Origin: a virus | DNA length: 27,264 nt | Virus record (IMG/VR): IMGVR_UViG_3300042539_001642 | Coordinates: 1 to 27,264 of that record | Strand: one strand, 5' to 3' | Shown here: positions 355 through 25,447 of the stretch, piece by piece | Numbering within the stretch: position 1 is the first letter of the stretch | Layout of the letters: the number at the start of each line of letters is the position of its first letter | The notes under the pieces: model-generated | The model's database searches: none | What the model was told of the DNA's origin: nothing | Seen by the model: only the letters and a program-made list of their open reading frames with translations | Made by a program: the position numbers and the translations under genes

Positions 355-1164
355 ATGACTAAACTGATTTTAATTAATACCGAAGAAATCCAAAACTACA
401 TCAAAGACATTAGAAAAATTAAGGTTATATCCCATGAGAGACAAAATGTAATATTTAAAAGGTTATCAGATAAATCAATTAATAAAACTGAAAGACAATC
501 ACTATTAAATGAACTTGTGGTTGGTAATTTAAGATTCGTAATTAGTGTGGCTAAGTCTTACCAAAATAATGGTATGGAATTAATCGATTTAATATCCGAA
601 GGTAATTTGGGTTTAATTAAGGCGGCAGAAAGGTTCGACCCAAATAGTGGGTATCGTTTTATATCCTACGCTGTTTGGTGGATTAAACAATCCATTATGT
701 CGTCTTTAAATGAGAATTATAGAATGATAAGGTTACCATCAAATATCATTCAAGACAATAATAAGAAAAAAAAGAACGAAACGTTCACAGAAACCCAATT
801 TTTTATAAATTATGACGAAAGTGATGGTGAGGTTATTTTACCACATTGTGTCAATTTACACAATGAAATAAATGAAGATGGTGAACAACTTTTAGACACA
901 ATACCGAATCCAAATGCGGAAAATCCAGAGGACATTCTGAATACCCCCGAAGAAATTAAGAAAAGAGTTTCAATTATGTTGTCTGTTTTAGATGATAGAG
1001 AAAAAGTAATCATTGAAAAATCATACGGATTAAATGGGGTCGAAATGAATTTGGAAGATTTAGGGGAAGAATTTGGATGTACAAAAGAAAGAATCAGACA
1101 ATTAAGAGATAAGGCACTTAAAAAATTAAGAAACGATAGTTACGGACTATTAAACTATTTATAA
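355..1164 (+). CDS. RpoD-like sigma factor (phage-encoded)
   Basis: A 269-residue sigma-70 family protein that should direct host RNA polymerase core to phage promoters. Region 1.2/2.1 starts near residue 45 (NELVVGNLRFVISVAKSYQ). Region 2 follows, with DLISEGNLGLIKAAERFD (78-95) and the -10-reading segment RFISYAVWWIKQSI (101-114). Region 4 ends the protein, with a helix-turn-helix NLEDLGEEFGCTKERIRQLR. Region 3, between about residues 130 and 205, is shorter than in Bacteroidota RpoD and partly replaced by a Lys/Asn-rich and acidic stretch. An in-frame TTG at 307 would add 16 residues and overlap the upstream stop. I prefer ATG 355 because the likely promoter lies between the two. Family is certain; which promoters it reads is unknown. 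Confidence 0.93.
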   Translation: MTKLILINTEEIQNYIKDIRKIKVISHERQNVIFKRLSDKSINKTERQSLLNELVVGNLRFVISVAKSYQNNGMELIDLISEGNLGLIKAAERFDPNSGYRFISYAVWWIKQSIMSSLNENYRMIRLPSNIIQDNNKKKKNETFTETQFFINYDESDGEVILPHCVNLHNEINEDGEQLLDTIPNPNAENPEDILNTPEEIKKRVSIMLSVLDDREKVIIEKSYGLNGVEMNLEDLGEEFGCTKERIRQLRDKALKKLRNDSYGLLNYL

Positions 1165-8944: not shown

Positions 8945-8975
8945 TTTGATTTATGTTTTTTTTTGGTTATATTTT
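8945..8975 (+). promoter_or_regulatory. Bacteroidota-type promoter for the D12 methyltransferase
   Basis: TTTG (8945-8948), a 19-base spacer and TATATTTT (8968-8975) match the TTTG-N19-TAnnTTTG layout in all but the final G. Transcription should start near 8982, about 12 bases before the ATG at 8994. On the other strand this intergenic region (8899-8993) also holds a GATAAATA word upstream of the minus-strand small gene, too weak to call. Confidence 0.5.
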
Positions 8976-8993
8976 ATCTACAATTAATCGATA

Positions 8994-9884
8994 ATGATAA
9001 GTTATATTGGAGGAAAGGCCAGAATCGGTAAATGGATTGTACCATATATACCAAATGATATAGAAACATACGTAGAGGGTTTCTCGGGTATGTTCTGGGT
9101 GTTTTTTAACATGGACTTGGATAAGTATCCAAATTTAAAAACGGTCGTTTATAACGACTATAATAGGTTAAATGCAAATCTATTTAAATGTTCAAAACAA
9201 TATGATAAACTATGGGAAGAATTATCTAAATACCCATGCCAACAATTAGGTGTTGAAGATACTCCTCCTGAATATGAAAACATGTTTAATGAGTACCAAA
9301 AAGAGGTTTTTAATAGTGATTTGGTGATTGGAGAAGAACCGAATTTTGAAATTGCTGCAAAATATGTTTATGTTTTAACTCAAGTTTTTTCTGGTTCAAA
9401 ACCGGAAACATCAAAATATACGGACTATAAAGGTAAATATAGGTGTAAGGTTTTGATTTTTATGGACAAGTTAAAACACCCAAAATATAGAGAACATCTT
9501 GACAGAATAACTTTTATCGAAAATCAAGATTTTGAAACTGTAATAGAAAAATACGACTCACCAACAACATATTTTTACATGGACCCACCGTATTGGAAAA
9601 CTGAGAACTATTATTCAAATCATGTTTTTACAAGAAAAGACCACTTTAGGTTATCAAAGTCTTTATCTAATATCTCAGGTAAATTTAGTTTGTCGTATTA
9701 TGAATTTGAAGACTTACATCTTTGGTACCCAACAGATGGTACCGCAATAAACTCAAAAGGACAAATGTTACTTTTCCAACCAATTAAATATAGATGGGAA
9801 CAACAAACATTTAAAAAAGCGGCAGCGGCTAAAAAAGATGGTACTCAAAATGACGGTGTTGAATTACTTATTATGAATTATTAG
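8994..9884 (+). CDS. D12-class N6-adenine DNA methyltransferase (Dam-like)
   Basis: 296 residues, the usual size. It methylates adenine at N6 in double-stranded DNA using S-adenosylmethionine. The SAM-binding motif is at the N-terminus (YIGGKARIGKWIVPYI, residues 4-19, with FxGK replaced by YIGGK), followed by EGFSGMFWVFF. The catalytic motif DPPY lies at residues 197-200, giving the D12 (alpha) motif order. The sequence recognised cannot be read from the gene. In a phage it may protect DNA from host restriction or mark phage DNA. It has its own promoter and is followed after two bases by the next gene. Confidence 0.9.
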   Translation: MISYIGGKARIGKWIVPYIPNDIETYVEGFSGMFWVFFNMDLDKYPNLKTVVYNDYNRLNANLFKCSKQYDKLWEELSKYPCQQLGVEDTPPEYENMFNEYQKEVFNSDLVIGEEPNFEIAAKYVYVLTQVFSGSKPETSKYTDYKGKYRCKVLIFMDKLKHPKYREHLDRITFIENQDFETVIEKYDSPTTYFYMDPPYWKTENYYSNHVFTRKDHFRLSKSLSNISGKFSLSYYEFEDLHLWYPTDGTAINSKGQMLLFQPIKYRWEQQTFKKAAAAKKDGTQNDGVELLIMNY

Positions 9885-10897: not shown

Positions 10898-11632
10898 TTA
10901 CATTGTAAAATCATCTTTACCTAATCTTGATTTAGCGCCAAGTTGGTTAATAAACCATCCTTTATATTGACCATATACTCCTGAGAAGTGACATGGTCCT
11001 AAGACACCAATCATTTTTTCAAAAATGTATCTATCACAATCTTTTGTTTGTGGTGATGGATACCATATATTATTATCAACAAACGCACTTCTACTAAATG
11101 AAACCTGAGAGCCATCAACCCTACACGATGGAGAAATTGGTTCCCTATAATGATTTAATGATGATGTATTAAAACTTTTATCTGAGGGTTCTTCTACAGA
11201 TTCACGATAAGTCTCAACCTCAGGATTAAAAAATTTAACATGAGAGTAACACCATGATTTATCTGAATTTTCATTGTAAAACTTATTTAAGTTGGTTAGA
11301 TAATCAGGAAACAACGCATCATCATCACACATAACAATAACGTAATTCGCGTCACTTTCTTGAATTGCTCGATTCATATATGCACCATGAATACTACCAC
11401 CTTGTCTTTTTTTATCTTCTGCGGTGTTGTTAATATAATAAAAAGTAAATTTATCAATGATTGAGGAGCAAACCTCTCTAACCACCTCTTCACCTTTATT
11501 AATTGACCCATCATCAATGAACCTAACTTCAAAATTTTTATAATTCAATTCCATAATCGAATTAAGGGCGTTTAAAACAATTTTTGGTCGTTCATAATAA
11601 ACCAATATGATTAAAAATTTATTCGTTTTCAT
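10898..11632 (-). CDS. Family 2 glycosyltransferase
   Basis: 244 residues from ATG 11632; a longer start at 11680 would overlap the SDR gene by 62 bases and lacks family support. It has a GT-A fold: an N-terminal strand KFLIILVYYERP, a nucleotide-sugar-binding acidic pair VRFIDDGS (residues 40-41) and the metal-binding triad MCDDDALFPDYL (103-105). It transfers an unknown sugar. It is the last gene of the seven-gene minus-strand operon and overlaps the SDR gene by 14 bases. Confidence 0.85.
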   Translation of the reverse strand: MKTNKFLIILVYYERPKIVLNALNSIMELNYKNFEVRFIDDGSINKGEEVVREVCSSIIDKFTFYYINNTAEDKKRQGGSIHGAYMNRAIQESDANYVIVMCDDDALFPDYLTNLNKFYNENSDKSWCYSHVKFFNPEVETYRESVEEPSDKSFNTSSLNHYREPISPSCRVDGSQVSFSRSAFVDNNIWYPSPQTKDCDRYIFEKMIGVLGPCHFSGVYGQYKGWFINQLGAKSRLGKDDFTM

Positions 11633-12263
11633 ATGCACCAGTAATAGATAAATTAGTTCCGTTAATATATTCGGTTTCAATGATTGTCGACACTAAGTTT
11701 GACATTTCACTAACCATACCAAGTCTTTTAAGAGGTATCATTTTTAAAACATTTGATAATACTTCTTGAGGTACTTTTTCCGTTAAGCCACCATCAAAAT
11801 ACCCTAATTGAATTGAGTTTGATGTGATTCCGTATTTAGAATTTTCTAACGAATATGTTCTGATTAGATTATCACAAAAAGACTTAGATGCCGAATATAT
11901 TCCTGTACCTCTAATTGGGTTTTTAGATAAGACCGATGAAATGTAAATCACCCTACCAAATTTTTTTTCTCTCATTTTTTCAGTAGAATGTCTTAATACA
12001 TTTAAGAAACCAAAAATATTTACACCAACCTGTTCCGTAACCATTTCATTTGTTTGTTTATGAATTAACCCATCGTAGTTTTTGACCGATAGGTAAATAA
12101 TAATATCAAAATCAATAGACTCCAAAAATTTTTTAACCCTAACTTCATCAGTCACATCGCATGTTTTCGAACCGATAGATATACATTCATATCTTTCACT
12201 AAGATATTCTTGCAATTTAGAACCTAAACCTCCGGTTCCACCAAATAATAAGATTTTTTTCAT
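11619..12263 (-). CDS. SDR-family NAD(P)-dependent oxidoreductase
   Basis: 214 residues. The Rossmann nucleotide-binding motif GGTGGLG is at residues 8-14. The catalytic Ser is in VIYISS (about 109-110), Tyr123 and Lys127 sit in YSASK, and the tail is NGTNLSITGAY as in FabG-like SDRs. It is somewhat short for the family (usually ~245). In this setting it probably reduces or oxidises a sugar or acyl group for glycan synthesis. It abuts the dioxygenase gene with no gap, the ATG following its stop directly. Substrate unknown. Confidence 0.9.
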   Translation of the reverse strand: MKKILLFGGTGGLGSKLQEYLSERYECISIGSKTCDVTDEVRVKKFLESIDFDIIIYLSVKNYDGLIHKQTNEMVTEQVGVNIFGFLNVLRHSTEKMREKKFGRVIYISSVLSKNPIRGTGIYSASKSFCDNLIRTYSLENSKYGITSNSIQLGYFDGGLTEKVPQEVLSNVLKMIPLKRLGMVSEMSNLVSTIIETEYINGTNLSITGAYENE

Positions 12264-13145
12264 TTATTTATTGTGTTTATATTCTCTTATGTTTTTTTCT
12301 GTAATGTTCTTTTTTGAAAATTCACCTTTCCATGCTTCTGAAAACATTGGTGAATAGTACACATCACAATCGTCATAGTAATAATGAGTTACCTGTGAGT
12401 AACGAGTACTATTCGGGTCTCTAATAACGTCGCCACCATGAATTAAATTTGATACCCATAAAAGTGCTTGACCTTTTTTACAAATTAAAGGTTTAACTTC
12501 CAATTTTTGAACATCAACTAATTGTCTAATAAATTCTTCATATTCTGAATAACTATCGAATTGTTTACCATACTCAGGAACTTTAATTTTTAGGTCGTAA
12601 AAATCAAATATTGGTAGCTTATGTGAACCCGGTACATAGAGTAATGAACCGTTTTGGTCCGTCATATCTTCTAATGCAACCCAAACCGCCGTTAACCATC
12701 TATGTGGCATGGAATCAAAATGTATTAAATCACTATGTAGTGGTTGATTTGAACCATAATTAAAGGTTATTGTTTGAAATGGGTACGGTTCTCTCTTATA
12801 AAATAACCTAAGAATATCCATAACAATAGGATTTAAAGAAAGAGATTGTAACATTTCACTTTCTTTCCAACCTTCAAATATTCTTTTACCTTTAGAATAA
12901 TGATACCCATCCGCTTGGGTAACCACTGTATCTTGTTCATTTAATCTATCAATTTCTTTTTTAAAGTTATCTATTTGTTCATCGGTCAAACCCAAATCTA
13001 AAACGATATAACCATCTCGGTTAAGTTTATACGCTAATTCTTTTTGTTCTTCGGTTAAATCCTGATGTTTAATTAATTCATTAAAAAATGGGGATTCAAA
13101 CCACGGCCAATTCATCGCCTCGGAATCTTGTTTATAATTTTTCAT
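12264..13145 (-). CDS. Phytanoyl-CoA dioxygenase-like Fe(II)/2-oxoglutarate oxygenase
   Basis: 293 residues, a typical PhyH length. The iron-binding triad is visible: His137 and Asp139 in QPLHSDLIHF, and the distal His236 in LIHGGDV. Arg248 (DPNSTRYSQVTHYY) is placed to bind 2-oxoglutarate. Such enzymes hydroxylate or rearrange small molecules and occur in sugar and secondary-metabolite clusters. Here it likely hydroxylates a sugar or its acyl decoration. It lies between a glycosyltransferase and the SDR gene in one operon; the next stop is two bases away. Substrate cannot be deduced. Confidence 0.88.
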   Translation of the reverse strand: MKNYKQDSEAMNWPWFESPFFNELIKHQDLTEEQKELAYKLNRDGYIVLDLGLTDEQIDNFKKEIDRLNEQDTVVTQADGYHYSKGKRIFEGWKESEMLQSLSLNPIVMDILRLFYKREPYPFQTITFNYGSNQPLHSDLIHFDSMPHRWLTAVWVALEDMTDQNGSLLYVPGSHKLPIFDFYDLKIKVPEYGKQFDSYSEYEEFIRQLVDVQKLEVKPLICKKGQALLWVSNLIHGGDVIRDPNSTRYSQVTHYYYDDCDVYYSPMFSEAWKGEFSKKNITEKNIREYKHNK

Positions 13146-13147
13146 TT

Positions 13148-13906
13148 TTAAAAACCTACTTTATAAATTATTTCTAATTCTTCGTTATTTTTTACATAAT
13201 TATTTTTTTGACCTGCATGAGATTGGAAATTTAAACAATATGGAGAATATGACGGGTGATTTTTAATTTCCATACCTAACCTAACAAATCTATTAGTAAA
13301 ATCAATTTCATATTTTTCAAGTTTATCATATCCATCATTTAAACTTGATGTCATATTTAAAAAATTTTTAATTTCATCAATCGACCTTGATTGTAAAAAT
13401 TTATTAGTTGAAGTTAATCCACAACCACCACCAGAGTGTTTCGGGTGAAATGAAATTGACATTGGAGCCAATGAAACAAATCCTAAATTATCATCACTAT
13501 CTAAAAAGTCAATGAAATCTTTCATATATTCGTTCTTATAAACTAAAACATCGTCTTCACAAAAAAACCAATAATCATAGTCGTTTTTGTATTTTAAAAA
13601 CATATCATAATAACCTCCAAAAGAACCTCCTTTATTGTCTCTACTCTCCACAATAATTTTACCGTTTTTTGTTTCAACATTGTGATATGAATTTAATATA
13701 TTGTTACTTTCAATATTGTTGCAATTATTGTTAACAATAATAACATCTGTCGGTACACCATTTTCAATATTGAGTTCGTTTTCAATCATTAGTTTTAAAA
13801 ACTCAATTACGTTTTGTGGTGTATTGTAAACCGACCTTCTGTTACCAAAATATGTGCAAATAATCTTTGCACATGTTTTATTTTTGTTTGATGAAATTTG
13901 GGTCAT
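13148..13906 (-). CDS. Glycosyltransferase-like protein (GT-A fold)
   Basis: 252 residues. An N-terminal strand AKIICTYFGNRR begins the fold, and a typical acidic site WFFCEDDVLVY lies at residues 117-119, as in family 2-type glycosyltransferases. A Gly/His-rich segment, FHPKHSGGGCGLTST, is unusual and may form the acceptor or metal site. The nucleotide-sugar pair expected near residue 40-60 is replaced by VIIVNNNCN, so this is a divergent member. It overlaps the acyltransferase end by 29 bases. Confidence 0.72.
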   Translation of the reverse strand: MTQISSNKNKTCAKIICTYFGNRRSVYNTPQNVIEFLKLMIENELNIENGVPTDVIIVNNNCNNIESNNILNSYHNVETKNGKIIVESRDNKGGSFGGYYDMFLKYKNDYDYWFFCEDDVLVYKNEYMKDFIDFLDSDDNLGFVSLAPMSISFHPKHSGGGCGLTSTNKFLQSRSIDEIKNFLNMTSSLNDGYDKLEKYEIDFTNRFVRLGMEIKNHPSYSPYCLNFQSHAGQKNNYVKNNEELEIIYKVGF

Positions 13907-14444
13907 TTGATAATTTAATTACGTTTTCCTTATTTCTGGATTTATGAAATTTTAAAGGATTACCAATATACACCGACCATTCGTTTAATTCCGATTTTGA
14001 ATAAACAAAACTACTGGCACCAATTGTACAACCTTCAGGGAAAGTTACACCTGGTAAAACAACAACGTCTGAGGCGATTCCCGAATAATTTTCAAATTTG
14101 ATATCACCCCTAAAGATTTTATTGTTACCCCAAAATTCATTTACGGGTCCAAAATCACCACTGTAATCTTCGGATGCGCAAAATAACTTTGAACCATAAC
14201 CAATAAAATTCCATTTTCCTAGTGTTATTTTATGTTGTGTACCACCACCTAAAACAGCATGTGAACATATCTGAGCATATTCCCCAACTTCTAATGCGGT
14301 GGTTATTAAACAAAATGGGTCTATTCTTACATTATCACCCAAATAAACATTTTTTGGATTTGTGAATATTACATTGTGACCAATAAAGACATTACTACCA
14401 CAATAACCCAAATCCTTTTTTATTTCTTCATTCCATCCAACCAT
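13878..14444 (-). CDS. Left-handed beta-helix (hexapeptide) acyltransferase
   Basis: 188 residues with repeated hexapeptide-like turns: GSNVFIGHNVIF, VYLGDNVRID, EVGEYAQICSHAV, then FIGYGSKLFC and CTIGASSFVYS. The C-terminal IGNPLKFHKSR is typical of sugar O- or N-acetyltransferases of the WbbJ/VatD-like class. Next to a DegT aminotransferase it most simply acylates the new amino group of a nucleotide sugar, as in VioA/VioB-type pairs. No acceptor specificity can be read. Only 12 bases separate it from the aminotransferase. Confidence 0.87.
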   Translation of the reverse strand: MVGWNEEIKKDLGYCGSNVFIGHNVIFTNPKNVYLGDNVRIDPFCLITTALEVGEYAQICSHAVLGGGTQHKITLGKWNFIGYGSKLFCASEDYSGDFGPVNEFWGNNKIFRGDIKFENYSGIASDVVVLPGVTFPEGCTIGASSFVYSKSELNEWSVYIGNPLKFHKSRNKENVIKLSNDPNFIKQK

Positions 14445-14456
14445 ATCATTACTATT

Positions 14457-15605
14457 TTACCATCCCTTTTTAATACAATCCACAATATATTCTCTTTGTT
14501 CTTCGGTAACCCACCAACCAACAGGTATAGAAACCACTTTACCGATTATTTTATCTAACGTTGGTAATGGAGAATTATAATTTTGCACACAACTATGTTT
14601 ATCATTTCTTTCATGTACTTGAGATACGACTATATTACATTCTTTCATCCATCTATAAAATCCTTCCCTATTTTCAACTAACATACTATAAATCCAAAAT
14701 GCAGATTCGTGACCCTCATGTCTTGTTAATGTTGTTAACCCATTAATATTATTTAAATTTTCATCATAAAATTTCGCGTTAGATTGGTGGGTGTCAACTA
14801 TATTTTTTACATGTTTTAGATTTTCAATACCAACCGTTGCACAAACATCATTCATATGGAATTTAAACCCCCATTCTTGAATATCGGCTTCACACCTAAA
14901 ATCTTTTCTATTAGAGTTTCTATCAATACCATACCATCTTAATAACTTCGCTCTTTCATAAAGTTCTTTGTGAGGTAGTAATAATAAACCACCATCAATT
15001 GAGGTTATGTGTTTAATTGCTTGCAAACTATACATCACCATATTTCCATGGTTACCCAAACGTTTTCCTTTATACTTTGAACCGAATGAATGTGCCCCAT
15101 CTTCAATAACCGCCGGTTTAAAACCATATAATTCAAAACATCTATTTTGAATTTCTTTGATTTTATCCAAATCATTTGGATACCCACCCCAATGGACTAA
15201 CATGATTATTTTAGTTTTGGGTGATAATTTTCTCATTAAATCATCTAAATCTATATTTAAAGTAGATGGGTCAATATCTACCCATTTTATTTTCAAATTA
15301 TTAGCTAAAGTTGGAAAATTTGAAGCAGTACAGGTTAACGATGTTGATAAAACTTCATCACCATTTTCAAGACCCGGCCATTTATCTGTTTTGTTTTTTA
15401 ATAAGTGTAAGGCCAAATGTAGACCACTGGTACCTGAGTTTAACGTTACCACGTAATCTCTATCAAAGTAATTTTTTAAGTCGTTTTCAAATTTTTCAAC
15501 TTTTTCACCTTGACCTATATACCCACTATTTAGTACTTTTGTAACTTCAGATGAAGCGGTTTCTGACATAAACACTTTAAATAGTTGAATCATTTCTTTT
15601 TGCAT
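14457..15605 (-). CDS. DegT/DnrJ/EryC1/StrS-family sugar aminotransferase
   Basis: 382 residues, the family's usual length. It is a PLP enzyme that puts an amino group on a keto-nucleotide sugar, usually with glutamate as donor. Visible features are the cofactor-binding NSGTSGLHLAL (57-67), EDGAHSFGS (Asp169 stacks with the PLP pyridine nitrogen) and the Schiff-base Lys198 in SLQAIKHITSIDGG. The late segment GWWVTEEQ replaces the usual PxxP end. It is followed by the acyltransferase in the same operon. Because no dehydratase or nucleotidyltransferase is in the window, its substrate must come from the host or from genes elsewhere in the phage. Confidence 0.93.
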   Translation of the reverse strand: MQKEMIQLFKVFMSETASSEVTKVLNSGYIGQGEKVEKFENDLKNYFDRDYVVTLNSGTSGLHLALHLLKNKTDKWPGLENGDEVLSTSLTCTASNFPTLANNLKIKWVDIDPSTLNIDLDDLMRKLSPKTKIIMLVHWGGYPNDLDKIKEIQNRCFELYGFKPAVIEDGAHSFGSKYKGKRLGNHGNMVMYSLQAIKHITSIDGGLLLLPHKELYERAKLLRWYGIDRNSNRKDFRCEADIQEWGFKFHMNDVCATVGIENLKHVKNIVDTHQSNAKFYDENLNNINGLTTLTRHEGHESAFWIYSMLVENREGFYRWMKECNIVVSQVHERNDKHSCVQNYNSPLPTLDKIIGKVVSIPVGWWVTEEQREYIVDCIKKGW

Positions 15606-15610
15606 ATTTT

Positions 15611-17119
15611 TTAATTTAAAATAACAATATTTTTTATTTTTTTCAAGTTTTGTTTTATAAAAGGTTCTAACCTTTCTTTGAAATCACTTGACATCTTTTT
15701 ATTTTTTTCTTCATGGTCATTTCTTGATTGTGATTCGTAGTGGTATGCCACTGATTTACCAGATATAAAATTTTTATAACCAAAAATTTCACATTTTAAA
15801 TTTAATTCAACATCTTCAAAACATTCAATATAATTTTCATTAAACATGTCACATTTTTCAAATACTTTTTTATGAATCATCATAAAACCTCCAGTATTAC
15901 CAATTACGTTTTTTGTGTTTGTTGTATAATTGTAATAAGAATTAAAACCATGGTGAGTTATCCTAACATTATTTATTTTCTCTAATCCAATTAAAACACC
16001 ATCATGTTGAACAGTATTGTCTCCGAAATGAAGTCTGGCACCAACAGTACCAACATTTTTATTTTCTTTAAAAATCAACAACATGTTATAAATCACGTTG
16101 TTTAATAATTTAATATCGTTATTACAAAATAAAAGGAATTCATAATTATTTGAAATGTAATTTTTCACAACGTCATTATTAATCTTTGCAAAATTGTAGT
16201 AATCATATTCAATTAGTTTTATATCACCTAATGTTAAAATATTTTCTTTTATCCATTTTTTTTCATCATCAGTTGAACCTGTGTCAGCAATGAATATGGT
16301 AAATAGGGTAGAATTACAATGGTCATAAAATGATTTTATACAATCGTGCAACATCTCAACTTTTCCTTTGGTTGGGATAATTACAGCAACTTTTCCAATG
16401 TTTTTTAATGGTTTTTCTTTGACATTTTCAACATAAATTTTTTCAGGTTTCAAATCTAATGGTAGTTTATTTCCCCATTTTTGTAAAAATCTTTCTTTAG
16501 ATTCAAAAAATTCTTGGTTTGGTTGACCAACTGATTGGTGAGTAATTTCAAATGAAGATGTAACACCAATTTTAACACCGTCTAAATAATTCGGTAAACA
16601 AAACGAATGGTCATAAAAATGAAATTTACCAATTGTTTCATCAAAAGAATGTTTGATTTTTGTTTTATTAAATGATATAAATAAACCATCAATTGTAACA
16701 ACGGGAATTAATTCGGGCAATTTAGTTGAATATCGACTTAACCATTTTTTTTGACCTTCTGGTTGATGGTAAACTTGTCCAACCATTGTTTGTTGCATAC
16801 GTTCCCAATAAACACCGGATTCAGGAAAATAACAAGAGCCAGCTTTACCTATAATACCATAATCACTGTTTGATTCAAAATCTTTAAGTATTTTTACACC
16901 CCACCCTGTTTCTAGTTTAATATCATTGTGGACACATACAATGATTTCATATTTAGACTCACTAATTCCTCTGTTATAAATTTCTGCAAGTGAATATTGG
17001 TTAAAATTTTCGTATTCAAGAATTTCAAAATTTTTAATACCAATAGTTTTTGTTAAATGGTCTTTAAAAGTTTTATTATAGTTCGTGTCTTTGTGTGTTG
17101 AGTAGATTATTGTTATCAT
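15611..17119 (-). CDS. Two-domain family 2 glycosyltransferase
   Basis: 502 residues made of two GT-A domains. The N-terminal one (about 1-230) starts MITIIYSTHKD and has YNRGISESKYEIIVCVHNDI (HND at 64-66). The C-terminal one (about 240-500) starts VAVIIPTKGKVEMLHDCIKS, with IADTGSTDD and FLLFCNNDIKLL, then NTGGFMMIHKKVF and FEDVELNLKC near the end, as in rhamnosyltransferase-like enzymes. It may add two different sugars or polymerise a disaccharide. It is the first gene of the sugar operon, with a perfect TATATTTG box upstream. Confidence 0.88.
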   Translation of the reverse strand: MITIIYSTHKDTNYNKTFKDHLTKTIGIKNFEILEYENFNQYSLAEIYNRGISESKYEIIVCVHNDIKLETGWGVKILKDFESNSDYGIIGKAGSCYFPESGVYWERMQQTMVGQVYHQPEGQKKWLSRYSTKLPELIPVVTIDGLFISFNKTKIKHSFDETIGKFHFYDHSFCLPNYLDGVKIGVTSSFEITHQSVGQPNQEFFESKERFLQKWGNKLPLDLKPEKIYVENVKEKPLKNIGKVAVIIPTKGKVEMLHDCIKSFYDHCNSTLFTIFIADTGSTDDEKKWIKENILTLGDIKLIEYDYYNFAKINNDVVKNYISNNYEFLLFCNNDIKLLNNVIYNMLLIFKENKNVGTVGARLHFGDNTVQHDGVLIGLEKINNVRITHHGFNSYYNYTTNTKNVIGNTGGFMMIHKKVFEKCDMFNENYIECFEDVELNLKCEIFGYKNFISGKSVAYHYESQSRNDHEEKNKKMSSDFKERLEPFIKQNLKKIKNIVILN

Positions 17120-17394: not shown

Positions 17395-17426
17395 AAAAAA
17401 AAATTACACTTTTATGTGCAATTTTT
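17395..17426 (-). terminator. Intrinsic terminator after the small Cys-motif gene
   Basis: On the minus strand an 11-bp stem, AAAAATTGCAC / GTGTAATTTTT (17426-17416 with 17409-17399, one G-T pair), has a six-base loop and is followed by an unbroken T run (17401-17395 region). It overlaps the stop codon of the gene ending at 17425. This separates that gene from the ribbon-helix-helix gene downstream. Confidence 0.7.
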
Positions 17427-17613
17427 ATTGAGGAGTCTGTTCTTCGTTTGACTCATTAGTTAATTCTTCAATCTTATCAATGATTTCATTGATTTGTTTG
17501 TCCATTACTGTTATTTCTTGAGGAGAACTATTTGTAGTTCCTTCTGTTAATTGTACAGTGATTGTTTGATTGTTAACTGCTTGATTGTTTTTTTTACATC
17601 CGCATCCGGCCAT
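17425..17613 (-). CDS. Small protein with GCGCKK N-terminus, unknown function
   Basis: 62 residues. It starts MAGCGCKKNNQ, has a Thr/Gln-rich strand-like middle (QTITVQLTEGTTNSSPQE) and ends with an acidic helix (NEIIDKIEELTNESNEEQ). The Cys pair plus Lys resembles the start of the 54-residue membrane protein at 8734-8898, but there is no membrane helix here. Not recognised. It is a single-gene unit: its own leader contains TATTTATAAAAAAA, and an intrinsic terminator overlaps its stop. Confidence 0.6.
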   Translation of the reverse strand: MAGCGCKKNNQAVNNQTITVQLTEGTTNSSPQEITVMDKQINEIIDKIEELTNESNEEQTPQ

Positions 17614-17621
17614 AATTAGTG

Positions 17622-17669
17622 TTTTTTTATAAATATTTGGTTTATTGAAAATAATTTACTATATTTTTG
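17622..17669 (+). promoter_or_regulatory. Divergent promoter module before the DPPF methyltransferase
   Basis: A TTTTTTTATAAATA word (17622-17635) leads into TTTG (17636-17639). After 20 bases comes TATATTTTTG (17660-17669), which contains a perfect TAnnTTTG (17662-17669). Transcription should start near 17676, about 27 bases before the ATG at 17703. The same arrangement with the same 20-base spacing occurs at 18706-18753. Read on the minus strand the first word is TATTTATAAAAAAA, 8 bases before the ATG at 17613, so it may also serve that gene. Confidence 0.55.
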
Positions 17670-17702
17670 ATGAAAAAATATTAAAATACAAACAAAAAGT
17701 AA

Positions 17703-18356
17703 ATGGAAAAAGATTTTAAAATCGTAAAAAGTGTCCAACATTCAAACTATGAGGCGATAAAAAACATCATGGAACTCTATGGTATAGAGAGATTTGACTT
17801 AGATTGCACCTACTCAAAAGGTAATTTTTGGAAAAATTTACCTGAACCATTACATAAAACCGACTTGTATCCGCATTATGAACATGTTATTGAGGCGAAT
17901 TCTGAAAATTTACCATTCGAAGATGGTTCGATGAAAAGTATTATGTACGACCCGCCTTTTGTTATTGCGGGAAAAACATTTAAAGAAAACAGACCCGGAA
18001 GTTCGATTATTGCAAAAAGATTTGAAGGTTATACCACATATAAGGAATTACAAGAAAATTATTACAATACATTAAAAGAATTATATAGAATTTGTCAAAA
18101 AGATGGATTTTTGGTTATGAAATGTCAAGATACCGTGTCAGGGGGTAAACAACACTTTAGTCACGTAATGATAATGAATATGGCGTTTAAGCTTGGATTT
18201 TATCCATTAGATATGTTTGTTTTAATAAATAATGTAAGACTTAATAGTTTTGGTACAAAATGGACAAAACAAGAACATTGTCGAAAATACCACAGTTATT
18301 TTTGGGTATTCAAAAAAATTAAACCAAAAGTTAATTATGATTTTATTGGGTTTTGA
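17703..18356 (+). CDS. DPPF-motif DNA methyltransferase-like protein
   Basis: 217 residues. The catalytic motif IV is MYDPPFV (Asp83-Phe86), preceded by LPFEDGSMKSI. It is followed by a Rossmann half with ELYRICQKDGFLVMKCQD (carrying the motif-V-like strand) and a C-terminal HSYFWVFKK strand typical of N6-adenine/N4-cytosine methyltransferases. The motif-I Gly-rich loop is not obvious, and FDLDCTYSKGNFW at the N-terminus looks like a phage-specific SAM or base-binding segment. It probably modifies phage DNA, alongside the D12 enzyme at 8994. Nucleotide-level or RNA substrates are not excluded. It overlaps the minus-strand DUF192 gene tail-to-tail by 22 bases. Confidence 0.75.
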   Translation: MEKDFKIVKSVQHSNYEAIKNIMELYGIERFDLDCTYSKGNFWKNLPEPLHKTDLYPHYEHVIEANSENLPFEDGSMKSIMYDPPFVIAGKTFKENRPGSSIIAKRFEGYTTYKELQENYYNTLKELYRICQKDGFLVMKCQDTVSGGKQHFSHVMIMNMAFKLGFYPLDMFVLINNVRLNSFGTKWTKQEHCRKYHSYFWVFKKIKPKVNYDFIGF

Positions 18357-18706
18357 GGTGAACCCAAATACATATTAACCTTGTCTCCAACCTTCATACC
18401 TGAACACGTTCCCGATGGAAATTCAATTACATGGTCACCAATACCCGAATATCTTTTTGGGTTCATTTCGTTTCGACCAGCGGGTTCACAATTTAGGTGA
18501 ATTTTACTGATTCGACCATTTAATATAAAAACAATATCCAAATTAATAAGACAATTTTTCATCCAAAATGAATGATGACCAATTTTACCCATATTAAAAA
18601 CCATACACCCATCTAAATGGTCTCTACCCATCATACCTCTTTGAATTTCTTCTGGTGTTGACAGATATTCCGCAGAATACTTTTGGTTATTAATTATTAC
18701 TGACAT
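18335..18706 (-). CDS. DUF192 family protein
   Basis: 123 residues covering the whole DUF192 domain: an N-terminal strand, then EEIQRGMMGRDHLDGCMVF, HSFWMKNCLINLDIVFI, GRISKIHLNCEP, and the late HVIEFPSGTCSGMKVGD. Cellular members often have a signal peptide; this one has none, so it should be cytoplasmic. The molecular function of the family is unsettled. It is a single minus-strand gene between two plus-strand ones. The TATTTATAAAAAAATG leader leaves no room for a normal promoter unless the mRNA is almost leaderless. Confidence 0.88.
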   Translation of the reverse strand: MSVIINNQKYSAEYLSTPEEIQRGMMGRDHLDGCMVFNMGKIGHHSFWMKNCLINLDIVFILNGRISKIHLNCEPAGRNEMNPKRYSGIGDHVIEFPSGTCSGMKVGDKVNMYLGSPQNPIKS

Positions 18707-18753
18707 TTTTTTATAAATATTTGTTTATCTCATTATTTTTTTTTATATTTTAG
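18706..18753 (+). promoter_or_regulatory. Second copy of the divergent promoter module
   Basis: TTTTTTTATAAATA (18706-18719), TTTG (18720-18723), 20 bases, then TATATTTTAG (18744-18753). The layout and spacing equal those at 17622-17669. The start codon of the plus-strand gene is at 18756, so a transcript from this box would be leaderless or nearly so. The left end overlaps the ATG of the DUF192 gene on the other strand. Confidence 0.5.
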
Positions 18754-18755
18754 AT

Positions 18756-19001
18756 ATGAGACCTATTTTTGACGGAAACTTTAATTTTGAAAATCACATT
18801 GAGTTGGAATATGTTTTGGATAATTTAAATCCAAAAATAGCAATTAATATATTGGAATTAGGAATAGAACAGGGACTAAGAGAAGGTATATTCGATTTGA
18901 CCGAAGTTCATTGTTTATATAAATCACTTAGATTTTTAAAAAATTATGAAGATAAGAATAATAATTTATTCAATGATAATAATGATGGGGATAATAACTA
19001 A
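18756..19001 (+). CDS. Unknown acidic protein, 81 residues
   Basis: Not recognised. It has a helical core (HIELEYVLDNLNPKIAINIL, then EQGLREGIFDLTEVHCLYKS) and an Asn/Asp-rich tail (NNNLFNDNNDGDNN). It has no other in-frame ATG, so the start is fixed even though the likely promoter lies only a few bases upstream. It is overlapped at its end by a small hydrophobic gene. Confidence 0.55.
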   Translation: MRPIFDGNFNFENHIELEYVLDNLNPKIAINILELGIEQGLREGIFDLTEVHCLYKSLRFLKNYEDKNNNLFNDNNDGDNN

Positions 19002-19113: not shown

Positions 19114-19330
19114 AATAGAAACTAAAAAATATTTATACGATTTTTTTATTCTTAAAAAGAAACATTTTTGGTTTTTAATACCGACCCCAATTCTTTATTA
19201 CAATAAAGAAACGTTTTTTGAAACCGGTGTATATACACCATCATTTGGGTTTACATTTAGGTTTTTAAATATTATGATTGGAATACAAATTCAAAAAAAC
19301 TTATATATTAAAAATGAAAACAAAAATTGA
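19106..19330 (+). CDS. Unknown aromatic-rich protein, 74 residues
   Basis: Not recognised. It is rich in Phe, Tyr and Ile (KHFWFLIPTPILYYNKETFF, then PSFGFTFRFLNIMIGIQI), possibly membrane-associated through the C-terminal hydrophobic stretch. It overlaps the glutamine synthetase start by 17 bases, so it is probably translated together with that gene. Confidence 0.5.
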   Translation: MGKIETKKYLYDFFILKKKHFWFLIPTPILYYNKETFFETGVYTPSFGFTFRFLNIMIGIQIQKNLYIKNENKN

Positions 19331-20429
19331 ATACGTATGGTTAGATGGATATATATCTGAACCTAATTTAAGAAGTAAAATAAAAATAATCGATTACGCC
19401 AATCCATCAAGAATAACATTGGGGGATATACCTAATTGGGGGTTTGACGGCAGTTCAACAAAACAAGCTGAAGGTAATTTTTCTGACTGTTATCTTAAAC
19501 CAATCAAATTATATCGTTCGGATAATAATGAATCAGACACGATTTACGTATTATGTGAAGTTTTGGATGGAGACAATAATACACATGACTCAAATACTCG
19601 AGCATTAATTGGAGATGAAGATATTGATTTTTGGGTGGGTTTCGAACAGGAGTACTTTATCAGAAAAGGTCATAATCAAAACATTTTAGGATTTAACGGT
19701 ACAATCATTGACCCACAAGGAAAATACTATTGTGGTGTTGGTGGACAAATGCATGGAAGACATCTAAGTGATGAACATTTGGATATGTGTCTAAAATATG
19801 GAATCAATATTGAAGGAACAAACGCAGAGGTTGCTATTGGTCAATGGGAATACCAAATATTTGGTAAGGGAAAAATATCAACATCAGATGACTTATGGAT
19901 GTCTCGATATTTTCTTTATAAATTGGCCGAAAAATATGGATACCAAATTGATTTACATCCAAAACCTATTCAAACTGGTGAGTGGAATGGTTCAGGTTTA
20001 CATACAAATTTTTCAAATAAAAAAATGAGAGAAGTTGGCGGAGAAGAATATTTTAACTCAATTTTTAAATCTTTTTCAAGTAGAACAAAAGAACACATTG
20101 ATGCATATGGTTCCGATAATCATTTAAGGTTAACCGGAAAGTATGAAACACAATCGATTGACAGGTTTAGTTGGGGGTTTTCTGATAGGGGAGCGTCTAT
20201 TAGGGTACCTAAAATGGTATCTGAAAATTGGACGGGGTATTTGGAAGACAGGAGACCGGCTTCACATGCCGACCCATATAGAATTGTTAAAGTTATTTCA
20301 GATACGTTAAAATTTGCGGATGAATTATATAAAACGTTATATATGATGTATTACGAATCAGATGTTATTAAAAATGATTATGGTACATTAACAAAAGATG
20401 AACTTCTTAATGATTTCAAACAAGACTAA
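19314..20429 (+). CDS. glnA: Type II glutamine synthetase (GSII)
   Basis: 371 residues, the compact GSII type found in eukaryotes and Bacteroidota. It makes glutamine from glutamate, ammonia and ATP. All main active-site blocks are present: WGFDGSSTKQAEG (42-54), metal-binding GFEQEYF (Glu111, Glu113), NAEVAIGQWEYQIF, the ammonia/ATP-loop GEWNGSGLHTNFS, RLTGKYET, DRGASIRVP and the late LEDRRPASHADPY. This argues for an active enzyme. I start at ATG 19314; an upstream TTG would add 12 residues inside the previous gene. TAATG couples it to the next gene. It may keep glutamine available for nucleotide and amino-sugar synthesis during infection. It is unusual for a phage and probably host-derived, although the codon use looks as AT-rich as its neighbours. 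Confidence 0.95.
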   Translation: MKTKIEYVWLDGYISEPNLRSKIKIIDYANPSRITLGDIPNWGFDGSSTKQAEGNFSDCYLKPIKLYRSDNNESDTIYVLCEVLDGDNNTHDSNTRALIGDEDIDFWVGFEQEYFIRKGHNQNILGFNGTIIDPQGKYYCGVGGQMHGRHLSDEHLDMCLKYGINIEGTNAEVAIGQWEYQIFGKGKISTSDDLWMSRYFLYKLAEKYGYQIDLHPKPIQTGEWNGSGLHTNFSNKKMREVGGEEYFNSIFKSFSSRTKEHIDAYGSDNHLRLTGKYETQSIDRFSWGFSDRGASIRVPKMVSENWTGYLEDRRPASHADPYRIVKVISDTLKFADELYKTLYMMYYESDVIKNDYGTLTKDELLNDFKQD

Positions 20430-21205: not shown

Positions 21206-21384
21206 ATATACGTTTAATAACAAAAATGAAAGAGATACAGACTTTTTATAGAGAGATAGGAAGTTATTGTTACGAATTGTACACGTTGATGTGTGCATTC
21301 GCATTAAAAGAAAATATACCTTACGGTCTAGATATTCATCTGAAACTCATGGATGTAGTAGAAGGAGAATATGTGGGAATTTGA
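21202..21384 (+). CDS. Unknown small protein, 60 residues
   Basis: ATG 21202 overlaps the HAD stop as ATGA. The product is helical (IQTFYREIGSYCYELYTLMC, then LKLMDVVEGEYVGI). Not recognised. An internal ATG at 21226 is an alternative start. The promoter of the next transcription unit begins inside its last codons. Confidence 0.5.
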   Translation: MNIRLITKMKEIQTFYREIGSYCYELYTLMCAFALKENIPYGLDIHLKLMDVVEGEYVGI

Positions 21385-21410
21385 TTTTTTTTGAATTTTT
21401 GTTATATTTG
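21380..21410 (+). promoter_or_regulatory. Best Bacteroidota-type promoter in the window
   Basis: TTTG (21380-21383), a 19-base spacer and TATATTTG (21403-21410) match TTTG-N19-TAnnTTTG with no mismatch. Transcription should start near 21417, about 22 bases before the ATG at 21439. It drives the run of small genes leading to thymidylate synthase. Confidence 0.7.
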
Positions 21411-21438: not shown

Positions 21439-21684
21439 ATGAACAACGAGATGAATAACGAAGGACCAAAAACATTTGTTATTAATGATTTTAAAGCATT
21501 TCTTGAACATCTATCATTTTGGCATAACAAATCAGATGATGAGTGTATCGAATTAGCAACAAATGAATATGGTTTAGACGCCGAACAAGCATTGATGAAC
21601 ATGTTCGAAAGAGATTTTGTTACTGATATGAATAATAATATAATTGAAGAACTTAAAAATTTAAGAGACAATGAGGATGAATAA
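21439..21684 (+). CDS. Unknown small acidic protein, 81 residues
   Basis: The start is ATG 21439, downstream of the promoter; an upstream TTG at 21391 lies inside the promoter and cannot be used by that transcript. Helical and acidic (FLEHLSFWHNKSDDECIELA, then ALMNMFERDFVTDMNN). Not recognised. The first 20 bases (atgaacaacgagatgaataa) recur exactly at 22324, where another gene of this block begins, pointing to duplication in the region. Confidence 0.6.
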   Translation: MNNEMNNEGPKTFVINDFKAFLEHLSFWHNKSDDECIELATNEYGLDAEQALMNMFERDFVTDMNNNIIEELKNLRDNEDE

Positions 21685-22168
21685 ACAACAACAAGAATTA
21701 TTGGATGAGGCTTACGAGAATTACACGAAAACTTTGGTAGGTTCTATTACTTTCTCGGAAAGAGAAAAAAATTTCAAATCAAATGGGGTTGAATTTAACT
21801 CAGGTTATCCAAATTATACCCACTATACACAAGAAGAATTCATCAATAAATGTAAAACTGAGGATGCACTATCCTTAAAGTGGAGAGAAGAATATAGAAA
21901 CCTCCAATATGGCTCCAAAGAAGAAATAGAACACTTAAGTAAACATTATACACCCGATACAGAGTTCTCCCAAAGGTGGGGGTTGAAGATTGAGGAACGA
22001 GAGTTGAATTTGGAAGAAAGAGCAAAATGGTTACAAGATAATAAAGGATACGACTTATTGGTTGGTAATTTAGACCACGACCATATAAGAGAAGTTGTTG
22101 AAGAAGAAGCACCAACCAAACTAATCACAATAACATACAACGATAAAACAATAGAAAGTTATGGATAA
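21677..22168 (+). CDS. Paralogue A of a small phage-type protein family
   Basis: 163 residues. The start ATG 21677 is chosen because paralogue B (22336) begins at the same place relative to the upstream stop: in both, GATGAATAA ends one gene and starts the next. Shared blocks with B are QQELLDEAYENY at the start, FSQRWGLKIEERELNLEER in the middle and PTKLITITYNDKTIESY at the end. A further block, TQEEFINKCKTEDA, resembles a segment of the thymidylate synthase C-terminal piece. Function unknown. Confidence 0.65.
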   Translation: MNKQQQELLDEAYENYTKTLVGSITFSEREKNFKSNGVEFNSGYPNYTHYTQEEFINKCKTEDALSLKWREEYRNLQYGSKEEIEHLSKHYTPDTEFSQRWGLKIEERELNLEERAKWLQDNKGYDLLVGNLDHDHIREVVEEEAPTKLITITYNDKTIESYG

Positions 22169-23257: not shown

Positions 23258-23544
23258 ATAAAGAAATTGACATAACACTAGTGGATAAAATAGTCGCTGA
23301 TACAAGGAGAGTTTGTGAGATACGATTTGATTGTATGGTGACAATGCATGATGTTGCATATAAGAAATACAAGGGAATGTGGGGACAAGAAAAACAATCC
23401 AAAACACCTCAATGGTTTAAAGCCAATCATATTCTAACATTAGAAACGGTTAAACATGCCGACCCATACGAGTTGGGAATGAGAATTAAAGAAATGTTTC
23501 ATCAATTAGAAAAAACAATAGAAAGTTATGAACAACCTAGATAA
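23254..23544 (+). CDS. Unknown protein, 96 residues
   Basis: Not recognised. It is mixed and helical ([20 protein letters not shown], then [20 protein letters not shown]). Its last codons, TIESYEQPR, come from the same DNA word (aacaatagaaagttatg) that ends paralogue A, and this word also provides the start context of thymidylate synthase, which it overlaps by 17 bases. Confidence 0.55.
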
Positions 23545-23848
23545 ACAATACCAAGCACTCCTACAAGACATACTTGATAATGGAGTAGAAAAGAAAGACA
23601 GAACAGGTACGGGGACTCTATCAGTATTCGGTAGACAAATCCGTCATTCTATGAAAGATGGTTTCCCACTTTTAACTACCAAAAAAATGTATTTCAAAGG
23701 AATTGTAACTGAATTGTTATGGTTCTTGCGAGGTGATACATCAATAGAATATCTTTTAGAAAACGATTGCAATATCTGGACAGGAGACGCTTATCAATCT
23801 TACTTGAAAGAATGTGAAAAATTAAAAAAAGATGATGAAAAAATGTAA
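23528..23848 (+). CDS. thyA: Thymidylate synthase, N-terminal piece
   Basis: 106 residues. They cover the first third of ThyA, which methylates dUMP to dTMP with methylene-tetrahydrofolate. It contains the phosphate-binding [12 protein letters not shown] (the Arg21 equivalent), the folate-side [20 protein letters not shown] (the Glu58 equivalent) and NIWTGDAY (the Trp80 equivalent). The coding sequence then ends KLKKDDEKM at a TAA, where an intact Bacteroidota enzyme would continue. A homing endonuclease gene follows after 38 bases, and the rest of the enzyme is encoded at 24596-25447. No catalytic residue is lost, so the two pieces could assemble. Confidence 0.92.
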
Positions 23849-23886
23849 TTTTTATATCCATCACCATATTTATAATAAAAAAGAAT

Positions 23887-24609
23887 ATGGAAACAAAATA
23901 CTATTTGTATATTAAAACAAGTCCAATTGGTTTAAAATATCTTGGTAAAACAACTAAAAATCCTTTCACCTACTTAGGTAGTGGTAAAATTTGGAAACAA
24001 CATATTAAAAAACATAATTTAACTATTAACGATATTAAAACAGAAGTTGTGTTCGAAACAAATGATGTTAATAAATTAATTGAAAAAGGTTTGGAATTAA
24101 GTGCGTTATACAATGTTGTTAAATCAAAAGAGTGGGCTAATTTAAGAGAAGAGGCTGGTGATGGTGGTGATACTAGTAATTTTATTAATTTTACAAACCC
24201 AGTTTTTCACAATTCAGAAAGAAGTAAACATCTAAATGAGTGGTTAAAAAATGTGAGTGAAGATGAAATGAAACAAATTTTAAGAGAAAGGATTGCAAAA
24301 GTTGATTTTAATGAGAGGGATAAAAAAACAAAAGAAAATACAGATTGGGAAAGTTGGAGGGAATCTATTAAAAATAGAAAAACTGACTATACCAAATTCT
24401 TAGGTAAGGTTCACGAAAAAAATAAAAAACCAGTGCTACAATTTGATTTAGATGATAATTTTATACAAGAATTTGATAGTGCATCGTCAGCGGCTAAATC
24501 GTTAGGTTGTAGTAATGGTGGTAATATAACAAATTGTTGTAAAAGTAGATGTAAATCTACTTTAGGATTTAAATGGAAATATAAAAACATAGAAAATGAA
24601 AGCAAATAA
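23887..24609 (+). CDS. GIY-YIG homing endonuclease with NUMOD1 DNA-binding domain
   Basis: 240 residues. The GIY-YIG nuclease domain is at the N-terminus: YYLYIKTSPIGLKYLGKTT (the GIY and YIG strands as YLYIK and KYLGK), then GSGKIWKQHIKKHN. The acidic residue expected for metal binding is probably Glu66 or Glu70. The middle is a charged linker. The C-terminal ~50 residues (VLQFDLDDNFIQEFDSASSA, then AKSLGCSNGGNITNCC) fit a NUMOD1/IENR1 DNA-binding repeat. It lies inside the thymidylate synthase gene, 38 bases after the first piece and overlapping the second by 14. A TATTTATAAT-containing leader precedes it. Such enzymes cut copies of the gene that lack the insertion. Confidence 0.9.
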   Translation: METKYYLYIKTSPIGLKYLGKTTKNPFTYLGSGKIWKQHIKKHNLTINDIKTEVVFETNDVNKLIEKGLELSALYNVVKSKEWANLREEAGDGGDTSNFINFTNPVFHNSERSKHLNEWLKNVSEDEMKQILRERIAKVDFNERDKKTKENTDWESWRESIKNRKTDYTKFLGKVHEKNKKPVLQFDLDDNFIQEFDSASSAAKSLGCSNGGNITNCCKSRCKSTLGFKWKYKNIENESK

Positions 24610-25447
24610 AAATGATTTACACGAAAGTGGTCGTCCACTCTCACAAGAAGAATTCATCGACAAAATCAAAACAGATGATGAGTTTGCTAAGAAGTGGGGT
24701 GAATTAGGACCAATTTATGGTAAACAGTGGAGAGAATGGAAAACCGAAGTTGCTATTCCAACAACATTAAAAATTGATGATGGTGATGATATTGAACCCT
24801 TATATGTAAAAGGAACACAGTATATTGACCAAATCCAAAACCTAATCAACGACCTTAAAACAAACCCAGACTCAAGACGATTAATGGTTAATGCTTGGAA
24901 TGTAGGTGAATTAGACCAAATGGTTCTTCCACCTTGTCATTATGGATTTCAAGTTTATACAAGAGAGTTGAGTGATGAGGAAAGATTAGATTGGATGAAA
25001 CAAAATAGGTCTAAAACGGTTTTACCAATGAGAGACCCTAGTGTTGAGTTTTCTATGGATGAGTTTTTTAGACCTTATGGTGTACCTAAACGAGCAATCT
25101 CTTTAATGTTCAACATGAGAAGTACAGATGTCCCATTGGGATTGCCTTTTAATTTAGCAAGTTATGGGTTACTATTAGAAATCATCGCAAAGGGGGTTAA
25201 TATGGTGCCTGATGAACTTATAGGTAATTTAGGAGATACACACATCTACTTAAATCAAATTGAAGGTATTAAAGAACAATTGACAAGAGAACCATATCAA
25301 TTACCCACTTTAAAACATATGAAAACAGATGAGTTCTTTAAATTTTTGAGTGAAGATTTAAGTTTGATTACACATTTGGATAGTAGTGATTTTACCTTAG
25401 AAAACTACCAATCACACCCATCAATTAAATTACCTTTATCAAATTAA
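24596..25447 (+). CDS. thyA: Thymidylate synthase, C-terminal piece with its own start
   Basis: 283 residues. An in-frame TAG at 24590-24592 shows translation cannot run in from upstream; ATG 24596, inside the endonuclease end, is the start. It carries the rest of the enzyme: LGPIYGKQWREW, the Arg pair in DSRRLMVNAWN (94-95), the catalytic Cys114 in LPPCHYGFQ, then FNMRSTDVPLGLPFNLASYG and GDTHIYLNQ. The segment between FQVYTREL and PKRAISL, and the EEFIDKIKTDDEFAKKWG lead-in, are the inserts usual in Bacteroidota ThyA, here somewhat enlarged. All active-site groups of this half are intact. Confidence 0.93.
   Translation: MKANKNDLHESGRPLSQEEFIDKIKTDDEFAKKWGELGPIYGKQWREWKTEVAIPTTLKIDDGDDIEPLYVKGTQYIDQIQNLINDLKTNPDSRRLMVNAWNVGELDQMVLPPCHYGFQVYTRELSDEERLDWMKQNRSKTVLPMRDPSVEFSMDEFFRPYGVPKRAISLMFNMRSTDVPLGLPFNLASYGLLLEIIAKGVNMVPDELIGNLGDTHIYLNQIEGIKEQLTREPYQLPTLKHMKTDEFFKFLSEDLSLITHLDSSDFTLENYQSHPSIKLPLSN

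Follow-up and report, generated by a model that had tools for sequence, protein, structure and literature searches.

The window, the whole 27,264-base stretch of DNA analysed here, is a fragment of a virus genome. It encodes an RpoD-like sigma factor with Sigma70 regions 2 and 4 (355-1164, plus strand; phrog_351, E = 5.6e-52), a DNA methyltransferase (17703-18356, plus strand; PF01555, E = 4e-7; phrog_24333, E = 1.9e-57) and a DUF192 protein (18335-18706, minus strand; PF02643, E = 2e-19). Two short regions 1.1 kb apart carry the same elements in the same order. Module 1 (17622-17669) lies between a 62-aa ORF on the minus strand (17425-17613; beginning MAGCGCKKN and matched to no family) and the methyltransferase gene. 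Module 2 (18706-18753) takes up nearly all of the 49-bp gap between the DUF192 gene and an 81-aa ORF on the plus strand (18756-19001), of unknown function by the ORF list and family scans. The start codon of the DUF192 gene includes the first base of module 2.

In module 1 the word TTTTTTTATAAATA (17622-17635) is followed by TTTG (17636-17639), 20 bases (17640-17659), TATATTTT (17660-17667), a T, and a G at 17669. Module 2 has the word at 18706-18719, TTTG at 18720-18723, 20 bases at 18724-18743, TATATTTT at 18744-18751, an A, and a G at 18753. A first-pass annotation of the sequence had described two copies of one divergent promoter module with this order, each placed between divergent genes. 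Direct reading of both copies confirms the order and the placement.

The pattern scan with shuffled controls that was proposed there finds the shared 18-mer TTTTTTTATAAATATTTG at exactly these two sites in the record, also when one mismatch is allowed, and a backwards control gave 0. Among 10,000 dinucleotide-shuffled pairs of the two gaps, with the second gap extended by 6 bases of coding sequence, the longest common word reached a maximum of 17 and never 18. The observation is exact and not due to chance. The longer stacked word TTTTTATAAATATTTNG is present at one site each in 5 of 12 records, including the near-identical contig G007, with backwards controls of 0; it requires a G that is missing from copy 2, so this search is blind to copies of the second kind. 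Given the rarity of the stacked word we reject the idea that the module is a genome-wide repeat. The arrangement is real and conserved, including upstream of many methylase orthologs and in DUF192 gaps.

Genomic setting and related phages

The window begins inside contig IMGVR_UViG_3300042305_001747 (39,846 bases), in which the first 40 bases of the window were found and the last 40 were not; contig and window show 100% identity in the methylase, the DUF192 protein and the sigma factor. We compared relatives of the methylase (68 loci), the DUF192 protein (at least 80) and the sigma factor (at least 80), together with three whole contigs from the clade, G001, G002 and G003, of 288, 336 and 311 kb. 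ORFs were called with our own simple caller (ATG starts, at least 45 aa, greedy by length), so some of the starts will be wrong. The phage is large and its host is probably a member of the Bacteroidetes.

A bS21 gene (PF01165) is present in 7 of 10 related records, including G003 (122155-122346, minus strand), G001 (28096-28296, minus strand) and G002 (280773-280964, plus strand). Huge phages of freshwater Bacteroidetes that encode bS21 have been described, with genomes up to 331 kb and with bS21 on the reverse strand within a block of terminase, capsid, protease and portal genes (Chen et al. 2022, PMC9723584). In G003 the minus-strand bS21 gene lies between plus-strand portal and protease genes, likewise on the opposite strand to both. 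We infer that the window belongs to this published group. The main text of that report contains the words promoter, leaderless and sigma 0 times. The sequence upstream of bS21 in G003 contains TATATTTG, resembling the class A motif described below.

The window has a number of other features. In a 354-aa protein (1460-2524) hydrophobic stretches are followed by a long region of VEEPVVEE/TPVIEE repeats, and a minus-strand cluster (10898-17119) contains apparent sugar-related and glycosyltransferase genes, as read from the ORFs. The DNA similarity of the window to the 735-kb phage LR756501 falls in a phage-encoded glutamine synthetase gene (19314-20429; PF00120, PF03951). The genes at 22161, 22682 and 23528 share nearly the same upstream stretch, ending in ATAGAAAGTTATG, which is either a repeated gene end or a repeated element. 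Thymidylate synthase is apparently split (23528-25447), with its N-terminal portion at 23528-23848 and its C-terminal portion at 24596-25447. The 240-aa ORF between them (23887-24609) may encode a homing endonuclease, and an intron is possible.

Strand-asymmetric motifs in the phage clade

The co-directional gaps of the three contigs (288-336 kb) contain two strand-asymmetric motifs, class A and class B. These were counted in the last 70 nt upstream of co-directional genes with gaps of at least 30 nt (n = 117, 121 and 136 in the three contigs).

Class A consists of TTTGG and, with 20 nt between the TTTG and the second element, TATATTTG or TATCTTTG followed by TA. In full, as TTTG-N19-21-TA[TC][AC]TTT[GT], the motif is found in 25/117, 9/121 and 19/136 upstreams, compared with shuffle means of 0.07, 0.09 and 0.17, and 0 times in the antisense direction in all three contigs. 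The spacing from TTTG to the second box peaks at 19-20 nt, and is 20 nt in both modules. TA[TC][AC]TTTG as such is present in 27/117, 16/121 and 26/136 upstreams. The modules carry TATATTTT, in which the final base is T where the consensus has G. Bacteroidetes promoters have the form TTTG / TAnnTTTG (PMC6847099, PMC7366714, PMC9723704). Class A shares with these sigma-A promoters the −33 TTTG, the −7 TAnnTTT and the 19-20-nt spacing, but the −7 boxes of the modules end in T, and the −33 element is much clearer in class A than has been reported for F. johnsoniae promoters. TTTG-N20-TATATTTT of the modules is thus best read as facing right, as one of a class that is found across related huge phages and that resembles the Bacteroidetes −33/−7 promoter. 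Among the best 25 families behind class A (85 first genes scanned) are ParB, endonucleases, a methyltransferase, a sigma factor and DnaA_C. The window contains two further complete copies on the plus strand, TTTG-N19-TATATTTT at 8945-8975 before the gene at 8994, and TTTG-N19-TATATTTG at 21380-21410 before the gene near 21439.

Class B is the box TATTTATA. The word TATAAATA seen in both modules is TATTTATA when read toward the left-hand gene. Sense TATTTATA is present in 19/117, 31/121 and 28/136 co-directional upstreams (shuffle means 2.4, 3.4 and 2.9), while sense TATAAATA is not enriched, at 1, 2 and 2 of the same upstreams (shuffle means 2.4, 3.4 and 2.6). The same kind of test on the T4 late region gave TATAAATA 6/16 and TATTTATA 0/16. 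This recovers the known strand of T4, showing that the test identifies the right strand. In the cultured Flavobacterium phage vB_FspM_immuto (NC_055915) the counts are TATTTATA 19/89 and TATAAATA 5/89. Class B, read in the sense of its gene, is therefore the T4 box in reverse complement.

The first-pass annotation had equated TATAAATA with the T4 late box. The letters are indeed identical to the non-template strand of the T4 late promoter in the P23 oligonucleotide (PMC7892883), and the clade has portal, tube and terminase families of T4 type plus a gp55-like sigma factor. Both points speak for a rightward late box of T4 type that shares the right-hand gene with the early promoter on which it is stacked. 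Yet sense TATAAATA lies at or below the shuffle means, so that the identity of letters stands while the rightward action is not supported. The sense/antisense test in the clade, in T4 and in immuto leads us to reject this arrangement, which we regard as very unlikely. The annotation had also pointed out that the first word reads as TATTTATAAAAAAA toward the minus-strand start, and it is this reading that the evidence favours.

The box is partly symmetric, with the outer TA common to TATTTATA and TATAAATA on both strands (TA....TA), and a late polymerase might then transcribe in both directions from each module. In immuto the 5/89 antisense forms occur beside the 19/89 sense forms, some of them overlapping sense boxes (CTATTTATAAATA). 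Against this, the three contigs have a strong strand asymmetry with no enrichment of the antisense form, and we consider bidirectional use of the box improbable.

The class B consensus of the three contigs has A-rich sequence 3′ of TATTTATA and no upstream element common to all three, i.e. no conserved −35. A scan was made of 104 first genes behind class B (106 less two of more than 1,500 aa); the sets cover genes that lie wholly within one 20-kb stretch. The best 25 PHROGs and Pfam matches include terminase, T4 portal, gp19 tube, tail fibre, endolysin and prohead protease; also listed are a DnaG_N match and three members of a CopG-like repressor family. The box precedes 21/39 homologs of immuto late proteins, compared with 2/21 replication/nucleotide homologs (p = 8e-4, gaps of at least 15 nt). 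The remaining 18/39 late homologs are without the box, as are three full-length major capsid genes. Neither class was found at 18/21 of the replication/nucleotide homologs or at those 18 late homologs, so part of the genome lies outside both classes.

Two further copies of TATTTATA in the window lie on the plus strand, each 20 nt 5′ of an ATG. One (23867-23874) precedes the ATG at 23887. The other (1156-1163) precedes the ATG at 1176, and accounts for the likeness that had been noted between the modules and the sequence before that gene; because the final codons of the sigma gene overlap it, this copy is uncertain.

A second ORF with a weak Sigma70_r2 match, 232-233 aa long, is present in all three contigs; it matches phrog_234 'late sigma' with E = 0.0036, 9.4e-5 and 0.0011. 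A profile of this second sigma that includes the immuto homolog aligns with the solved structure of T4 gp55 (7d7c_F) at E = 1.7e-4, profile positions 9-140 with residues 10-145. An AlphaFold model of the protein has low confidence (pLDDT 59), and Foldseek gave no match for it at E ≤ 0.001. The gp55-like gene is found in the related contigs, while the 27-kb window, being a fragment, carries only the RpoD-like sigma. Comparison with the T4 late system (PMC2988020, PMC7892883) thus finds in common a single −10-like box with no conserved −35, placed here before about half of the late homologs, and a phage-encoded sigma factor of the gp55 family. The differences are that the sense-strand box of the clade is TATTTATA, the reverse complement of the T4 TATAAATA, and that many of the clade boxes are only 3-5 nt from the ATG.

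Immuto shares with the clade the T4-type head genes, a gp55-like homolog (29% identity, 1e-12), and TATTTATA before the genes for terminase, portal, sheath, tube, hub, tape measure and a tail spike. One immuto virion structural gene has the variant TATTTATT, and several hypothetical genes also have the box; it was not found before the major capsid gene or two tail-fibre genes. Immuto differs from the clade in its early box, TATATTTA(GGTAT), and in its terminase, portal and sheath boxes, which begin 25, 24 and 33 nt from the ATG. Small genes follow one another over the 67-76 kb stretch of immuto, and nearly the same TATATTTAGGTATCAATAATTAAAAC block stands upstream of many of them.

Judged from the stretches examined of four other phages, the box is not common to all phages of Bacteroidetes; it was not seen in those of Tenacibaculum phage PTm1 (50 kb; 1/30 sense, 1/30 antisense), Prevotella phage Lak-B1 (50 kb; 0/30 and 1/30), LR756501 (~190 kb; 2/77 and 2/77) or LR756504 (40 kb; 0/25 and 0/25). 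In LR756501 the word AATATATA is present in 21/77 co-directional upstreams in the sense direction and 0 antisense, and TAATATAT in 18 and 0; these words are possibly that phage's own promoter box.

Ownership of the boxes and spacing to start codons

Among 45 distinct methylase upstreams, a divergent ORF is present in 22/24 of those with the box and 4/21 of those without (p = 7e-7, the events being not independent because the loci are related). This count used a slightly wider box pattern than that for conservation (24 versus 21 methylase upstreams). It appears that the late box goes with the left-hand gene, which argues further against a rightward late box, as does the position of the box 11-14 nt from the DUF192 ATG in 38/39 distinct gaps (from at least 80 loci).

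The two elements keep a close geometry. In the 45 distinct methylase upstreams the early pattern is found in 24 and the strict box in 21; in 41 distinct DUF192 upstreams (from at least 80 loci) the numbers are 25 and 33. Some upstreams are without the elements because the neighboring gene differs. Where both elements are present, the late box ends 0-1 nt before the TTTG in 18/18 methylase gaps and 20/21 DUF192 gaps (at least 80 loci), and the 20-nt spacing from TTTG to the −7 box is kept in 17/24 methylase and 20/25 DUF192 matches (at least 80 loci). Most methylase relatives have one additional base between the late box and the TTTG, with the length of TTTG-N20-TATATTTT unchanged. This looks like two units laid against each other.

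The identical 18-mer and identical spacing of two copies 1.1 kb apart might suggest that a single cassette was recently duplicated, instead of each site having its own promoters of the two classes. But the genes flanking the two modules are unrelated by family. Moreover, DUF192 relatives mostly have the version TAATTATA (27/33 boxes, from at least 80 loci), while methylase relatives with a box mostly have TATAAATA, so that each site keeps its own version. Recent duplication is therefore the least probable of the alternatives that we considered.

In 39 distinct DUF192 gaps including that of the window (from at least 80 loci), the late box, sought as TA[AT]TTAT within 30 nt with the last match taken, lies 11 nt from the ATG in 28 cases, 12 nt in 3, 13 nt in 6 and 14 nt in 1; the one remaining gap gave no match. 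Of 26 gaps measured (at least 80 loci), 25 have a length of 45-51 bp, with 47 bp the commonest. On the opposite strand of the 39 gaps (at least 80 loci) the −7 box lies 11-14 nt from the ATG of the partner in 23 cases and 20-24 nt in 3; in 13 there was no box with an ORF, several of these having another neighbor. For these the −7 pattern was relaxed, and a choice among several boxes went to that closest to 12 nt, a rule biased toward the leaderless spacing. Locus L100 was left out, as its match did not begin with ATG. For terminase the distance is 11 nt in 32/33 distinct upstreams and 13 nt in the other; for portal it is 11 nt in 34/39 and 12 nt in 3, with variant boxes at 11 nt in 2 (both from the best 80 of a longer list). 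Relatives at 81-100% identity were collapsed to distinct upstreams, and one truncated terminase locus was dropped. The terminase and portal proteins are alike from that Met onward (14 rows each).

Over the three contigs the distances fall into two modes. For the 85 class A genes, 17 are at 11-14 nt (12 of them at exactly 12 nt), none at 16-22 nt, 60 at 23-40 nt and 8 beyond. For class B, 144 sites within 60 nt comprise 39 at 11-13 nt, 7 at 16-18 nt and 68 at 19-30 nt. The antisense word and same-letter words served as controls. Only 1/25 antisense sites is at 11-13 nt, and TATTTATA has the most sites there among 56 same-letter words. The fraction of sites at 11-13 nt is 0.27, compared with 0.11 for the 44 other words with at least 10 sites pooled; the small word TATATATT has 4/13.

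An element acting at the level of the mRNA, bound by the ribosome or a regulator in late leaders, could also keep a constant distance, and terminase and portal indeed have a fixed 3-nt gap between TATTTATA and the ATG (best 80 of a longer list). But the late box is nearly absent before in-operon genes (gap less than 5 nt; 0/125, 2/170 and 1/133 in the three contigs), as opposed to 23/141, 30/146 and 22/157 for genes with gaps of at least 50 nt. This speaks against a translation signal, as do the two modes of spacing. In the terminase upstreams listed, TATTTATA lies directly behind an apparent G+C-rich hairpin and T-run (judged by eye), leaving little room for an upstream promoter. We therefore think it unlikely that the box acts in the message and not in the promoter.

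In Bacteroidetes the −7 box spans −12 to −5 (PMC6847099), so a distance of 12 nt places +1 on the A of the ATG. With a distance of 11 nt the strict rule would place +1 on the U of the AUG, so the start must be one nucleotide earlier. In the nearer mode the box-to-ATG distance thus matches the predicted box-to-+1 distance, and distances that would give short leaders are rare. The lack of class A distances of 16-22 nt fits messages that are either leaderless or have a leader of about 10 nt or more. In the DUF192 gaps the spacings predict leaderless mRNA, often in both directions. General E. coli start-site rules also entered into our reasoning. In immuto, the terminase, portal and sheath spacings indicate leadered messages, and leaderlessness, if real, would be a trait of the clade of the window.

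Applied to module 1, the rule predicts for the leftward late box (17628-17635, minus strand) a +1 at ~17623 and a leader of ~10 nt. The box directly abuts the rightward −33 TTTG (17636-17639), and the −7 box (17660-17667) would give +1 at ~17672 and a leader of ~31 nt. In module 2 the first base of the late box (18712-18719, minus strand) is 13 nt from the DUF192 ATG, and the predicted +1 at 18707, one base 5′ of that ATG, would give a message that is leaderless or has a 1-nt leader. To the right, −33 at 18720-18723 and −7 at 18744-18751 place the predicted +1 on the A with which the 81-aa ORF begins (18756), i.e. leaderless. The start codons at module 2 are thus at or adjoining the predicted start sites, from which both messages are predicted to be leaderless.

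A predicted divergent early-late promoter

Taken together, the sequence comparisons argue, with a probability that we put at roughly three in four, that each module is a compact divergent promoter, early-type rightward and late-type leftward. The rightward arm would be of the host-like Bacteroidetes kind (−33 TTTG, 20 nt, −7 TATATTTT), read probably by RNA polymerase with the host sigma-A or with the phage's RpoD-like sigma, and would serve the methylase and the 81-aa ORF early. The leftward arm would be the single −10-like box TATTTATA without a −35, read probably by the host RNA polymerase with the gp55-like late sigma of the phage, and would serve the 62-aa ORF and DUF192 late. Since the −33 TTTG abuts the late box, the two polymerases should exclude each other. 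Their footprints would overlap in both modules, and each should then act as a switch from early-right to late-left. The suggestion in the first-pass annotation that early-type and late-type elements are stacked in one divergent promoter-like module is thus supported by the sequence statistics. It was partly right as to early and late, with the late arm most likely leftward and not rightward.

A wider reading is possible, which we put forward tentatively and would not at present favor. The clade would read its late genes from the inverted TATTTATA, with the messages of terminase, portal and many other late genes starting at the AUG. The late program would then need leaderless translation in a host phylum where mRNAs are mostly leadered, and bS21, which is reported to be expressed with the structural genes, could favor such messages. 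On this view the DUF192 gap, at 47 bp, would work as a two-way switch of minimal size, with an early leaderless message in one direction and a late one in the other. We found no description of the TATTTATA late box or of leaderless late messages of these phages in the open-licence literature, and the new parts are the inverted sense of the late box and its fixed distance to the start codon.

If this is correct, much of the code of early and late promoters would be in hand for a widespread, uncultured group of freshwater phages. They would have a T4-type late system in which the box is reversed relative to that of T4, and leaderless mRNAs would be predicted for terminase, portal and many other genes. 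Published lake metatranscriptomes and the cultured immuto permit tests without new isolates, and the role of the phage bS21 in translation would become directly testable.
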